From assembly GCA_947444055.1 (NCBI GenBank), contig CANEYR010000001.1, positions 62,001-126,000 of the forward strand: a stretch of 64,000 bases of DNA, written 5' to 3'. The translations under genes and the position numbers were made by a program. Source of the stretch: Planctomycetota bacterium (GTDB lineage Bacteria; Planctomycetota; UBA1135; UBA2386). A model generated the notes under the pieces. It was not told the origin of the DNA and made no database searches. It was given only the letters and a program-made list of their open reading frames with translations. Shown in pieces: positions 15,623 through 22,169 of this stretch (its first letter is position 1; the number at the start of each line of letters is the position of its first letter).

Positions 15623-17317
15623 ATGCCCATCGATCCGCTTGTTCGTTCTCGCCATTCGTTGTTGGCCTTCTGCGTAGCTGCCGCCGCACTCGGCAGCGCC
15701 CGCGCCCAGACCGCGATGGCTACCGACCGCGCAGTTGGCGCGACCTTGGTCACCGTGCCGCACTGCAAAGAATGGCTCGGCACGCTGGCTAGCCCCGAGT
15801 TCGAAGGTCGCGGCACCGGCCAGCCAGGCTTCGAGAAAGCGGCCAACTACGTCGCGGCCCACTTCAAGTCGCTGGGCTTGGAAGCGCGCGGCGAGAAGGG
15901 CAGTTACTTCCAGCATGTGCCGTGGGCGTCCAGCAAGGTCAACGCCGCCAAGACCCGCGTCGTCTTCCGCAAGGGTGACGCCGAGGTCTGCACGATCCCG
16001 GCTGACCGCCTGACGGGCTCGGCCTCGAGCAATCTCGCCGCTACTGGCGACGTCGTGTTGTTGGTCGTGAATGCGCCGACGCCACCGCCAGTCCAACCAG
16101 GCCGCCAAGGGGACCGCCCCGGGGCAGCCGCGGCGTCCATCCCCGGCCTCGATGCCGTCGACGTCAAGGGCAAGGTCGTCATCGCCTACGTGCGACCCGC
16201 CGCCGAGCGCACGGCGCGGCAGACCGCGATGGCGCAGTTCGCCGTTCGGCAAGGGCTGCAAGGCAAGGAAGCAGCCGCCGTGCTGTTCGTCCAGACCGAG
16301 GCGGTGACCGGCGGCCTGCGCGGTGGTAGCGGCATGGGACGTCGCGGCGGCAATCCCGCTGCCGCTGGCGCTGGGCGATCGCCAGTCGACGCCTCCTTTG
16401 GCGGTGCGGACTTCGACGCCGTGCTAGTTGGTGCGGGCCTCAGCAAGGACATGCTCACAGACGCTCCAATCGCCACCGTGCTGCCGTTGCAGGGCACCGT
16501 GGAGGTCGCTGTCGAAGAGACGCAAGCGCCGGCGATGAACGTCTGGGCCGTGCTGCCAGGCAGCGATGCCAAGCTGAAAGACGAATACGTCGTCATCGGC
16601 AGCCATCTCGACCACCTCGGCCGCCGCGGTGACACCATCAGCCCTGGTGCCGACGACGATGCTTCGGGCACGACCGGGGTCATGGCCTTAGCGCAGATGT
16701 TTGCGAAGAACCCCGTGCGGCCAACCCGCAGCATCCTGTTCGTCTGCTTCTCGGGCGAAGAGAACGGCCTCGTCGGCTCGCGCTTCTTCGCCGACAACTG
16801 CCCGGTGCCCCTGGCCTCGATCGTGGGCGAACTGCAGATGGACATGATCGGCCGCGACGAAGAAGAGAACGTCGAAGGCAACCAAGGCGAGAAGGCCGAG
16901 GACAACCGCAACTCGCTGCACCTGATCGGCACCAAGAAGCTCGCCCCCGCCCTGCACGACCTCTGCATCAGCAAGAACGAGGCAGCCAAGTTCGACATCG
17001 AGTACGACCAGGAGGGCATGTACAGCCGCAGCGACCATGCCAACTTCGCGCGACACGGGGTGCCGATTGCGTTCTTCTTCACCGGGCTGCACCGCGACTA
17101 CCACCGCCCCAGCGACACGCCCGACAAGATCCACTACGAGAAGCTGCTGCGCGTCGCGACCTACGTCTACGACATCGCCTTCGAACTGGCGACGCAGTCG
17201 AGTCGGCCGATGATCGATCCGGCGTTGTGGGAGAAGTTCCGCGCTGGCAGCCGCAACAATGCGCCGGAGGTGCCCGCGGCGCCGATGCAACCTGGTGCAC
17301 CGAGCACCGGCAAGTAG
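15623..17317 (+). CDS. Secreted M28-family zinc aminopeptidase with PA-like insert
   Basis: About 564 residues from the ATG at 15623; an in-frame TTG at 15614 is possible. Signal peptide ends near ARAQ. The M28 co-catalytic zinc ligands appear in order: His of GSHLDHLG (about 331 from the TTG), Asp of GADDDASG (about 347), the GEENG pair (about 383), Asp of DMIGRD (about 411) and His of HRDYHRPSDTP (about 497). Residues 130-310 form a protease-associated-like domain holding a Gly/Arg-rich loop. It probably removes N-terminal amino acids from peptides in the periplasm or outside. The C-terminus is Pro/Ala-rich. Confidence 0.9.
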   Translation: MPIDPLVRSRHSLLAFCVAAAALGSARAQTAMATDRAVGATLVTVPHCKEWLGTLASPEFEGRGTGQPGFEKAANYVAAHFKSLGLEARGEKGSYFQHVPWASSKVNAAKTRVVFRKGDAEVCTIPADRLTGSASSNLAATGDVVLLVVNAPTPPPVQPGRQGDRPGAAAASIPGLDAVDVKGKVVIAYVRPAAERTARQTAMAQFAVRQGLQGKEAAAVLFVQTEAVTGGLRGGSGMGRRGGNPAAAGAGRSPVDASFGGADFDAVLVGAGLSKDMLTDAPIATVLPLQGTVEVAVEETQAPAMNVWAVLPGSDAKLKDEYVVIGSHLDHLGRRGDTISPGADDDASGTTGVMALAQMFAKNPVRPTRSILFVCFSGEENGLVGSRFFADNCPVPLASIVGELQMDMIGRDEEENVEGNQGEKAEDNRNSLHLIGTKKLAPALHDLCISKNEAAKFDIEYDQEGMYSRSDHANFARHGVPIAFFFTGLHRDYHRPSDTPDKIHYEKLLRVATYVYDIAFELATQSSRPMIDPALWEKFRAGSRNNAPEVPAAPMQPGAPSTGK

Positions 17318-17348
17318 CACACGACGCCAAGCAGCGGCGCGAGCGGTT

Positions 17349-18032
17349 CTAGCTGTCGACTTCTCGCCCGCGGCGCAACGACATCGGCGGGCCAAGGATC
17401 TCGCTCAGCACGATGGCCCGCTTCAAGTCGGTCAGTGCGTAGCGACTGGCGACGGCGGCTCGATGGGCCACCTCGACGACTCGCCCACCCAAGTTGCCGA
17501 TCGTGTGCGCACGCGCCGACTCGCCGACGCGCCCGCTCTGCACCGAGACGCGACGCGAAATGCCCTCGCCGACGTGTGGATCGACGTGAATGGGCAATCG
17601 CCGCGAGGACGTCGTCGGCCTGACGGGCGTTGGCGCGTGCTCTAGTTCCGGCACGTTGCGACGCCGCTGCGATGGCAGTGACGGCAGCGACGCCGGTAAC
17701 GTCGGCCGCACCGTCGGCCGCGGTTGGCGAACTTCGCTCGCTTCCGCAGGGCTTGAGGAACGATCGCCGCTGCTCGGCTCGGTCTCGACACCGAGGAGGC
17801 GCCGCATCTCGCGGGCGATCTCGTCCGCCGAACGTTCGTGCACGGGGTGGCTACGCACCGGCGTGGCGACGCGTTCCGTCGGCGATGGCGATTCCGGCAA
17901 CCGCGCCATCTCGGTGCGTTGGCGCTTGCCTTTCGCGACCTTGGCGGCGTTGCCGATCATGCCCAGAATCCAGGCCACGGCGACGAACAGCAGGATCGGG
18001 TTCTGCTGGAAGAACAGGATCAGACGATCCAC
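17349..18032 (-). CDS. Membrane-anchored protein of the FloA/NfeD operon, function unknown
   Basis: 227 residues. A single transmembrane segment (about 8-24) is followed by a basic, Ser/Pro/Arg-rich low-complexity region (30-150) and a better ordered helical C-terminus (about 160-220) ending ALTDLKRAIVLSEILGPP. That final block resembles the C-terminal block of small proteins encoded with flotillin-like genes in planctomycetes. It starts 3 nt after the floA stop, so it is co-transcribed and may be a floA-linked accessory. No enzymatic motif is visible. Confidence 0.7.
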   Translation of the reverse strand: MDRLILFFQQNPILLFVAVAWILGMIGNAAKVAKGKRQRTEMARLPESPSPTERVATPVRSHPVHERSADEIAREMRRLLGVETEPSSGDRSSSPAEASEVRQPRPTVRPTLPASLPSLPSQRRRNVPELEHAPTPVRPTTSSRRLPIHVDPHVGEGISRRVSVQSGRVGESARAHTIGNLGGRVVEVAHRAAVASRYALTDLKRAIVLSEILGPPMSLRRGREVDS

Positions 18033-18035
18033 AGG

Positions 18036-19073
18036 TCACTCCTGCCCAGGCATCTTCTTGCGCTGGCTCTCGCTCGTCTGCTGCGTCTCTTCGCCGGCGG
18101 CAATCTGCGTGCGCATGCGCGTGTCGGCTTCGAGGTTCTTGATGCGTTGGTAGTCGAGCACGCCCAAGTGGCCCGAGCGGAACGCGTCCGCCATCGCCTT
18201 CGGGACCTCGGCTTCGGCGAGCACCAGCTTGGCGCGATTGGCCGCGATCTCGGCGATGTTCTCTTGCTCGGCGGCAACGGCCATCGCGCGCCGACTCTCG
18301 GCGGCGGCTTGCGCGACGCGCTTGTCGGCCTCCGCTTGGTCTGCTTGCAGGCGGGCGCCGATGTTGTCACCGATGTCGACGTCGGCGATGTCGATCGACA
18401 GGATCTCGAACGCGGTGCCGGCATCGAGCGCCTTCGACAGCACACCCTTGCTGATGCGGTCGGGGTTCTCGAGCACGTCCTTGTGCGAATCCGACGAACC
18501 GATCGTCGACACGATGCCCTCGCCGACGCGCGCGATGATCGTTTCCTCGGTCGCACCGCCGACCAAGCGCTTGATGTTGGTCCGCACCGTGACGCGAGCC
18601 TTGGCCAGCACCTGAATGCCGTTCTTCGCCATCGCCGCCACTTTGCCCTCGGGCGGGCAGTCAATGACCTTCGGCGTCACCGACGTCTGCACGGCATCGA
18701 GAATGTCGCGCCCAGCCAAGTCGATGGCAGCCGCCTGTCGGAAGTCGAGGCCGAGGTTGGCGCGGTCGGCGGCGATCAACGCCTGCACGACGTTCAGCAC
18801 CTTGCCGCCCGCCAGATAGTGCGCTTCCAGGTCGCGCACATTGATCGGCAGGCCCGCCTGCGTGGCCGAGATGGCGCCGCGCACGATGACGCTCGGGTTG
18901 ACCTTGCGCAGCGACATGCCGACCAGCTGGAGCAAGCCGATCTTGGTTCCCGACATGTAGGCCTGGATCCACAAGTTGAGGAACTTCAACAGCAGCAGGA
19001 CCATGATGACGAGCAGGATCAGCACGCCGATCAGCACGTAGGTCCAGAATTCGAATGGGGCTTTCGCGAGCAT
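18036..19073 (-). CDS. floA: Flotillin-like protein FloA
   Basis: 345 residues from the ATG at 19073; the frame is open to 19217 but that part overlaps nfeD and looks non-coding. One N-terminal hydrophobic hairpin segment (about 10-34), then an SPFH/band-7-like domain with the UPF0365 text [27 protein letters not shown], and an Ala/Glu-rich coiled coil (about 235-320). FloA forms membrane microdomain assemblies. Length is close to the roughly 330 residues of Bacillus FloA. The gap to the nfeD stop is 37 nt, the usual nfeD-floA arrangement. Confidence 0.93.
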
Positions 19074-19110
19074 GTGTGGGCTATGGCGGTGTGAGGGGGT
19101 TTCTAAAGAA

Positions 19111-21159
19111 TCAGCGGCGGCCGACGACGACGCGATTGTTGGCGACGTCGAGGACCACGATCGGAGAGTCGGCGTCGAGCATTTCGCCACGAGTGACGAC
19201 ATCGACCTTGCGGCCATCGATGCGGGCGTAGCCCGACGGGCGTAACGCCGACAAGGTCGTGCCGGTCTTGTGCAGCAACGCGGCCAGAGCCGAATCGGCA
19301 GCCCCGGCGGACGTCGCGCTGGTCGGACCGCTCAAGATCAGGGCCTTGCCAAACGGCGTCTTCGGCAACAGTTTGAACGAGAACGTCAAGACGATGGGCG
19401 CAGCGATCGCTTCGACCACCACCACGGACACGCCGAACGCGGTCGACTGCTGGAAGGCGACGAAGATCGCACTCAGCAGCGCCACGCCGGACAGCGCCGC
19501 GATCACGCCGAAGGACACAAACATCACTTCGGCGACCAACAGGCCGAGGCCAAGCAGACAAAGCAGCACCACGAGACCGACACTGCCTCGTTCGCCGCTG
19601 CGAGCTGAAGCACCTTCGGCGGCGACGACGACACGAAGCCCTTGCACATAGAGCACGCGCACCGTGGTGCCGGCTTCGACGAACTCCCCTTCGGTTACCA
19701 CCTCGACGCGCTCGCCATCGATCTCCATCATGCCGGTAGGGCGCAGCACCGTTGCGGCTTTGCCGACGCGGCCAACCAACGCCATCGCGCCGGCATCGGC
19801 CAGACCATAGCCACTGCCGCTACCAGCCAGCACCGCCCCGCCGCCGCTCGGGGAAGCCAAGAACAGCCGGTTGAACCACGGCACCTTTGGCAGCAAGCGC
19901 CACATCAGCCCACCCAGCACCAACACGGACACGAACAGCAGCGTCAGGTTCGCCAAGTTCGCCAAGAAGATCGCTTCCTCGACCGCGTTGCTTGGCAACA
20001 CGAACGACTGGCGACTGAGCACGAGGGCCATCACGAGGCACAGGAAGCCGACCGCGCCAAACACGATGGTGCCGGGCAGCAGGAAGATCTCGACCGCGAT
20101 GGCAGCGAGGCCGAGGAAGAACACGAGGATCTCGGTGATCTCCGCGAGGCCAACCAAGTAGCTGTAGAACAGCGACAACGCCAAGAAGATGACGCCGAGA
20201 AAGCCCGGCAGACCCACACCCGGGGTCTTCACTTCGACCAGCAGCAGCAGGAACCCGCAGACGAGCAAGAACGGCTGCAGCAGTTCGAGCCACCCCACCA
20301 TCTGCTCCGCCCAGTTGATGGTCAGTTCGCCAATGCTGGCGCGGTCGATCGTCAACACGTCCGCCAGTTGGTCGAGATCCTGCAGCGTGCCGTTCGACAA
20401 GCCGAAGTCCGCGGCCTCCTGCGCACTCAACATCAGCGGGCGCGTCAGCGGACGATCGCCAAGCACCTTGGCCCCGCCCGCAGTCAACGCGGCGAGCTCC
20501 GTCTGTTCGAGCACTTGCTGGCGTTCGATGCCGCCAGCGCGCACGGTGGCGACCACGATCTGGATGCGCGGATCCACCATCGCCCGCGCCAACTTCTCGG
20601 CATCGGGCCGCAGCTTGGGATCGCGTTTGCTCAACCGCGCACTCATGGCATCCCGCACCGCATCGAGCCGCTCGGCCATCGCCTCGTCGGGGGAGGTGCC
20701 CAGCAACTCGCTCCACTCCTGTTCCGGCTTTTCGATCTCGCCCCACTCCGCACCGGGCAAGCAGAAGGCCTTGCTACAGACCAACGCCAACGCGGCCGCC
20801 CCCTGGCTGACGCGCCCCTTCAGCACCGCCACGGTCTTCACCTTGGCCTGCTGCACATGGTCGAGCAGGCTCTGCAAGTCGCTGGTGTCTTCGCCTTGGC
20901 TGCCGGCGGTCTCGAGGCGGAAAACCACATACAGAGCCCCACGGCTATCGGCTTCGCGCAAGGTGCGGTGGCAGCGCGCCAACTCCTGCGTGCCGAGCTT
21001 GCCGACGAGGGTCACCACCAGGACTTGCGGGGCGACCGCTGCTTGCGGCGGCTGCTGGCCCTTCAAGTCGACCCGTTGCAGCGGCCCGCCACAGGCGAGC
21101 AGCCAAGCGAACGCCAGCAGGGCCCAGGATCGGCAGAACGTCTTCGTCAGCACGTGCAA
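19111..21159 (-). CDS. nfeD: Long-form NfeD membrane serine protease-like protein with two OB domains
   Basis: 682 residues from the TTG at 21159 (the GTG at 21153 is the alternative); both give a lipoprotein signal with lipobox WLLACGG. Residues 45-270 are a ClpP/crotonase-like domain; Ser118 in [12 protein letters not shown] is the likely nucleophile but the motif is not the classical one. Residues 290-425 hold about five transmembrane helices, 460-515 an NfeD OB domain, 527-600 more helices, and 630-682 a second OB domain. Known long NfeD proteins normally end with one OB domain. Partner of FloA. Confidence 0.87.
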
Positions 21160-21170
21160 TGGTTTAGCAG

Positions 21171-21175
21171 GGAGG
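21171..21175 (+). promoter_or_regulatory. Shine-Dalgarno GGAGG fixing the start at 21183
   Basis: GGAGG 7 nt before the ATG at 21183. It decides for this start over the in-frame ATG at 21249. Clear Shine-Dalgarno sites are uncommon before non-coupled genes in this window. Confidence 0.6.
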
Positions 21176-21182
21176 CCGGTCG

Positions 21183-22169
21183 ATGACACTCTCTGTCTTG
21201 ATCCCGTCGCCCCGCCGACAGCACGGCTCACCTCGCGGCCGATACAAGATGGTGCCCCTTCCCGAGCCACCCGAGAACCACGTTGCGCACCGCGCCGCCG
21301 TCCTGGCCTTGCACAACGCCTTGTGCACGCTGCGGCAACACCCAGACCAAGCCCCGCTGGCCCGCACCGCCCTGCGCCGTTGTGAGGAAGAGCTGGGCAC
21401 CGCCACCGCCCACGGCCCGCTGACGTTGGGGCTGCGCCTGACCGCCGTCCAGCTCGGTGCCGAGGACGTCTTGACGTTCGCAGCGAACGACGCGCCATTC
21501 GGTCTGCTGCGGCTCGCTGGCATCGGACAAGTCGTGCTCAGCAAAAACTTCGCCGCCGAGAACGTTCCACCGCTCGTGCAGAGTCTGGTCAAGGTCACCG
21601 ACGAAGCCAGTGCGGAGCGCTGGGTGCGCGACCAGTCGCTGTCCGGGGTGCTGTTGCGCGCCGCGACCCTCGATGGCACGACCCCCGACGAGGCTTGCAG
21701 CGAATGGGCTCGCCTAGCCATCGCCGAGCCGACCAGCGAGATCGTGTCGGCGTTGATCGCCCGCGATCAGGCCAGCAACCTGCCGGCGTTGGCAGCGCAG
21801 CAGTGCTTGCTCGACCTCGACCGCGAATGCATAGACCACGACACGACGTTGGCGCGGCTGTTGGCGCGCATGCTCGAGCGCCGCGACCTGGCGACGGCGA
21901 GTTGGCTGTTGGCGGAAGTGGACCACCACGAGGGCGTCGCGCCGTCGACGCGCCGCTTGCTGCACCAGCAGGCGATCGATCGCGCCGACAACGCCTGGCT
22001 GCAACACCATCTCGACCACGGCACCCGCGACGAACTGATGAACTTGACGGCGTTCGTGATGCAACTCGGCGAGCGCGCGGCCGAGCGCTTCGCCGACCTC
22101 GTCGCCGCCGCCTCCCATCCGTTCTCACGCTGGCTCAGTGGGCTGCTCGGGCACCAGAACCGGCAGTGA
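21183..22169 (+). CDS. Soluble helical protein of unknown function
   Basis: 328 residues, no signal peptide or membrane segment. It is mainly helical with scattered TPR-like pairs in the C-terminal half (about 190-320; LLDLDRECIDHDTT, LARMLERRDLATASWLLAEVD). It includes four or five Cys residues without zinc spacing. I do not recognise a family. Starts 23 nt from the divergent nfeD start and ends 3 nt from the convergent barrel-protein stop. Confidence 0.65.
   Translation: MTLSVLIPSPRRQHGSPRGRYKMVPLPEPPENHVAHRAAVLALHNALCTLRQHPDQAPLARTALRRCEEELGTATAHGPLTLGLRLTAVQLGAEDVLTFAANDAPFGLLRLAGIGQVVLSKNFAAENVPPLVQSLVKVTDEASAERWVRDQSLSGVLLRAATLDGTTPDEACSEWARLAIAEPTSEIVSALIARDQASNLPALAAQQCLLDLDRECIDHDTTLARLLARMLERRDLATASWLLAEVDHHEGVAPSTRRLLHQQAIDRADNAWLQHHLDHGTRDELMNLTAFVMQLGERAAERFADLVAAASHPFSRWLSGLLGHQNRQ

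Follow-up and report, generated by a model that had tools for sequence, protein, structure and literature searches.

The window is a 64,000-nucleotide stretch of a Planctomycetota genome (GenBank assembly GCA_947444055.1, contig CANEYR010000001.1). On its reverse strand, positions 19111–21153 form a single open reading frame, read from a GTG start at 21153 to a stop at 19111, that encodes a 680-residue protein in which a long and a short NfeD are fused; a TTG lies in frame upstream of this start, at 21159. The flotillin-like gene floA follows 37 bases downstream. The genes of the locus and the parts of the fused protein are as follows.

19111..21153, reverse strand: fused nfeD (long plus short), 680 residues, coordinates including the stop; all 36 complete loci from families f1 and f5 carry the fusion
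21091..21153, reverse strand: signal sequence with lipobox LLAC|G at its end, residues 1–21 (from the sequence)
20302..21048, reverse strand: ClpP-like domain of the NfeD1b type, about residues 36–284, dyad lost (Q117, E161); PH1510-N fold match with Z 18.5, dyad columns
19885..20298, reverse strand: membrane block 1, five hydrophobic segments, residues 286–423; PF24961 66.1 bits, model helices, hydropathy
19612..19794, reverse strand: OB domain 1 (OB1), residues 454–514; PF01957 49.6 bits, five strands in the model
19582..19611, reverse strand: junction linker, residues 515–524; site of the long-gene stop and short-gene start in split genomes
19360..19593, reverse strand: membrane block 2, three hydrophobic segments, residues 521–598; model helices, hydropathy, second half of PF24961 at 18.3 bits
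19114..19296, reverse strand: OB domain 2 (OB2), residues 620–680; PF01957 37.6 bits, five strands with pLDDT 74–85, profile matches to 2k5h and 3wwv
18036..19073, reverse strand: floA, flotillin-like, 37 bases downstream of the fused nfeD; PF12127 502 bits, NF010186 512 bits
17349..18032, reverse strand: small protein, hydrophobic segment at the N terminus; unmatched in Pfam, with counterparts at floA loci of relatives

Architecture of the fused protein and its locus

The two halves of the protein, residues 1–514 and 515–680, were scanned separately with cut-offs of 29.1 bits for the NfeD OB family PF01957, 26 bits for NfeD_membrane (PF24961) and 40 bits for NfeD1b_N (PF25145). The first half matched PF24961 (66.1 bits) and PF01957 (49.6 bits), both above the cut-off, and the second half matched PF01957 at 37.6 bits (E 2.5e-9), likewise above it. 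Membrane block 2 is a shorter form that corresponds to the second half of PF24961 only, below the cut-off (18.3 bits, E 0.0024). In an AlphaFold2 model built from four sequences, residues 463–512 of OB1 and 630–679 of OB2 take up the same five-strand pattern, the OB2 blocks with pLDDT 74–85; the whole-protein model is weak (mean pLDDT 56.2, pTM 0.35) and its domain arrangement is unusable. From 23 second halves and split short proteins a profile was made and compared with solved structures; its OB part matched solved NfeD OB domains (2k5h, E 1.3e-5; 3wwv, E 3.5e-4). The OB2 sequence alone gave chance matches only among PDB sequences, and no YbbJ chain was found among solved chains at thresholds up to E 10. 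When the second half was modelled by itself from one sequence, the result was too poor for a fold search (mean pLDDT 49.6), and the fold search with the whole model covered residues 34–271, a range that ends before OB2.

A preliminary description of this DNA had proposed a ClpP-like domain and two membrane blocks, each followed by an OB domain; every one of these parts was recovered by Pfam, the AlphaFold2 model or a fold match, and for the second segment the PF01957 score, the five modelled strands and the profile matches to 2k5h and 3wwv all bear out an OB domain. Together, an OB domain above the cut-off, a membrane domain before it and an adjoining SPFH gene place the protein in the NfeD superfamily. 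Ten residues link OB1 to block 2. The source genome (89.67% complete) contains two NfeD OB matches, both inside the fused gene, and the floA of the window is its sole FloA match; the general SPFH family Band_7 has three more matches elsewhere in that genome. An Rfam scan of positions 17000–22000 gave no match. Proteins similar to that encoded at 17349–18032 (reverse strand) occur at the same loci in many f1 genomes and in a few other relatives, and this gene is perhaps part of the FloA operon.

A single fusion of two overlapping genes

Among the 151 genomes of the class sample, an NfeD match was found in 89 and a FloA match in 88, and the two lists differ only in G144 (locus L090), where a contig end breaks the locus. 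The complete fused gene is present in 36 of the 89 genomes, 29 of them in f1 and the rest in f5 (7/7), and complete long and short nfeD genes stand separately in 46 (families f2, f3, f4, f6 and f7), so that complete loci outside f1 and f5 are split without exception (46/46). In the other seven genomes (G128, G130 and G144 of f1, plus G096, G104, G141 and G147) the locus is in pieces. In 82/82 complete loci floA, or as much of it as the contig contains, lies directly downstream. An assembly artefact is ruled out by the presence of complete fused loci in 36 separate genomes. Neither NfeD nor FloA was found in 62 of the 151 genomes, so that part of the class lacks the system as a whole, through loss or otherwise.

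The split loci show how close the two genes already are. In most of them the TGA of the long gene overlaps the ATG or GTG of the short gene, and in three of the 46 (L044, L045 and L046) both genes share a frame, with a single stop between them. The split short proteins are 34–49% identical to the fused second half and mostly less similar to the first half. In a phylum-wide sample a match was found in 280 of 392 genomes; among the matches listed, both halves run on without a stop only in seven f1 or f5 genomes, and both were in one open reading frame in 0 of 20 loci taken from this sample. Plasmid records yielded three weak, partial relatives only.

A tree was built from the concatenated long, short and FloA parts (956 columns; quick tree with SH-aLRT support, no bootstrap). 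It holds 63 of the 90 rows available: 30 of the 36 fused loci, 25 of the 46 split loci and 8 outgroup rows from the 20 phylum-sample loci. All fused rows lie on one side of one branch (SH-aLRT 100), and a single change suffices to account for them. Two of the eight outgroup rows were placed among the split rows, and the outgroup does not form one clean branch. As read from the tree and the gene layouts, these results show that the fusion arose once, from two adjacent, overlapping genes. The opposite order, with a fused ancestor that later came apart, is unlikely: the separate-gene layout extends across the remainder of the phylum sample and over the tree's outgroup side. The view that an NfeD-long had been fused to an NfeD-short, separate genes elsewhere, is therefore upheld by the 46 split loci, the 36 fused loci and the tree.

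Some long NfeDs of other Planctomycetota (L092, L093, L094, L096, L097, L106 and L111) carry two ClpP-like stretches in one open reading frame of about 730–810 residues; this looks like a tandem version that arose by a duplication separate from the fused nfeD. Two loci, L102:2848-5301 and L105:3321-4896 (reverse-strand coordinates), each have two FloA matches.

Loss of the catalytic dyad and comparison with known NfeDs

In fold the N-terminal domain agrees with PH1510-N (2deo, Z 18.5, r.m.s.d. 2.7 over 181 residues), but its sequence is degenerate, scoring 30.9 bits with NfeD1b_N (PF25145) against a cut-off of 40. The catalytic dyad was mapped by aligning a profile of 20 dyad-keeping relatives to wild-type and mutant chains of PH1510. 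The invariant Ser of the relatives aligns with PH1510 S97, replaced by Ala in the S97A chain 6m4b. Their invariant Lys aligns with a PH1510 Lys; we read this as K138, which is the mutated position of 3bpp (numbering from the titles of the structure entries). Ser and Lys are both kept in 46/46 split proteins, 7/7 f5 proteins and 7/7 basal f1 proteins. In derived f1, the subclade of the window, they occur together in 0/22; Ser persists in one protein (L005) and Lys in two (L014 and L018), and the window's protein has Gln (Q117) and Glu (E161) at these positions. All 16 derived f1 rows that the tree contains group together on a single branch (support 100). We infer from these replacements that the ClpP-like domain of this subclade is probably a dead protease that no longer cuts. 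Mean pairwise identity within the derived clade is 0.51 for the ClpP-like domain and 0.71 for membrane block 1, and the domain appears to be still under constraint after the loss of the dyad.

A lipobox-like motif, scored with our own regular expression, is present in 15/22 derived f1 proteins, 2/7 basal f1 proteins, 0/7 f5 proteins and 6/46 split proteins. Its higher frequency in derived f1 than in split proteins suggests that lipid anchoring was gained after the fusion.

Each half of the fused protein has a known counterpart. Long NfeDs of the NfeD1b kind (PH1510 of Pyrococcus horikoshii, YqeZ type) likewise combine a PH1510-N fold, five membrane segments, one OB domain and an SPFH neighbour; the window's protein adds a membrane block and a second OB domain and, unlike PH1510, lacks the catalytic Ser and Lys, as does its subclade. 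Short NfeDs (E. coli YbbJ type, PH0471) likewise have three hydrophobic segments and one OB domain, but here this unit has no gene of its own and makes up the last quarter of a longer chain. The closest layout is the operon of long nfeD, short nfeD and floA in other Planctomycetota, with the same domains in the same order and floA last. There, in contrast, three genes are present and the active-site residues are kept, and the stop and start mostly overlap at the point where the window's protein is fused. No description of a tandem or fused NfeD was found in titles, abstracts or passages of the openly accessible literature. Judged on the sequence comparisons, we regard the finding as real: a clade-wide gene fusion within the known NfeD–FloA system, with a putatively dead protease in the window's subclade.

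Two OB domains, membrane topology and FloA

The two OB domains are not equivalent. In split genomes an Asn-Arg pair in the last OB strand marks the short OB (45/46) and is rare in the long OB (2/46). In f1 the pair is present in OB2 of 26/29 proteins and in OB1 of 18/29, the window's protein having Leu-Arg in OB1 and Asn-Arg in OB2, and in f5 it is present in OB1 (7/7) and absent from OB2 (0/7). This distribution shows that the OB bearing the common Asn-Arg motif has switched between lineages. With the pair in OB1 of f5 and missing from its OB2, the two OBs need not share one job.

In each of the eight fused proteins listed, hydropathy shows five hydrophobic segments in block 1 and three in block 2, and the AlphaFold2 model has three helices between the OBs. 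Behind segment five of block 1 the mean number of Lys and Arg residues is 3.07 in f1, 3.00 in f5 and 2.96 in split proteins; behind segment three of block 2 the corresponding means are 3.55, 3.43 and 3.54, and the other stretches counted range from 0 to 2.3. Flank charges and segment number are the same in fused and split proteins, and both OB1 and OB2 thus appear to carry the charge flank of a cytoplasmic domain. Domains separated by an odd number of crossings lie on opposite sides of the membrane, and three segments between two inside-type flanks therefore leave two options: a block 2 segment that fails to span the membrane, or a periplasmic OB2. Among the split short proteins, 34/46 have no tail at all before the first segment; the one with a long N-terminal tail (L080) has an acidic tail, which fits an N-terminus outside, as expected. 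The heart of the topology conflict is that the outside-type N-terminus of a short NfeD has been joined to a cytoplasmic OB1.

If all eight segments cross, five and then three, OB1 would be cytoplasmic with FloA, and OB2 would be periplasmic, beside the ClpP-like domain and out of FloA's reach. Such an arrangement agrees with the constant segment count in the eight proteins and the three modelled helices, with no segment being gained or missing between fused and split proteins, with the five segments given for PH1510 in passages of PMC10153343 and the three given for short NfeDs in passages of PMC2636767, and with the conservation of OB2 in f5 even though its last-strand motif has changed. The positive charge behind the last segment of block 2, which marks the cytoplasmic side and is unaltered by the fusion, speaks against it, as does the Asn-Arg motif of split short proteins that OB2 keeps in 26/29 f1 proteins, and we hold it to be possible, if on the unlikely side. 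It is doubtful, too, that the fusion has inverted the short half, with an OB turned to FloA inside and OB2 lying outside with the lipid-anchored dead protease, which would make the protein a two-sided microdomain scaffold.

Two further alternatives concern the junction. Between OB1 and block 2 the linker varies (7–27 residues), and stop/start overlap already couples the split genes, as might suit a chain that is cut at the linker after synthesis into separate long and short NfeDs, the fusion serving only to couple expression; this is quite improbable, since no conserved cleavage motif is seen by eye, only a loosely kept Glu-x-Gly, and the orientation problem would stay if the cut followed membrane insertion. 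Continued production of a separate short NfeD from an internal start, at the site where the short gene once began, is very improbable: most fused genes have an in-frame GTG, TTG or ATG near the junction, but these are ordinary Val or Leu positions that open a hydrophobic segment and vary in place, and ATG, GTG and TTG make up 9% of all codons in the fused genes.

Published structures indicate what the OB domains could do. In Staphylococcus aureus, according to passages of PMC11222466, the NfeD OB binds the FloA coiled coil in the cytoplasm, and a second OB face joins NfeD to NfeD. In E. coli, 26 QmcA–YbbJ heterodimers form a cage that protrudes into the cytoplasm, with one NfeD paired with each SPFH subunit (passages of PMC13086221). 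We give an even chance to the joint reading that the fused protein is a single-chain partner of FloA, with a non-cutting ClpP-like domain outside and OB domains that hold FloA. The parent state was the usual three-gene operon with floA seen in related Planctomycetota, in which the overlapping genes for a long NfeD of the NfeD1b type and a short NfeD were fused once. The ClpP-like domain, lipid-anchored outside in most of the subclade, may have a structural or peptide-binding role. The two OB domains would hold FloA and, being on one chain, would fix the ratio of long to short NfeD at 1:1. If both OBs are cytoplasmic, which requires that one of the three segments of block 2 does not cross the membrane, the fused chain could act as a staple between two FloA subunits that adjoin within a cage. 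We infer that such a staple is more probable than the bridging of two FloA oligomers, because the linker plus block 2 is short.

With two types of OB domain at a fixed 1:1 ratio, the clade may serve as a natural test of the number of NfeD OBs per SPFH cage. The contradiction in its membrane topology is a second natural test, within reach of a simple reporter experiment. Finally, a ClpP-like fold that is kept without its dyad argues for a role of this domain beyond cutting, and a single family with a series from kept to lost dyad offers a natural test of why many NfeDs carry a protease domain.
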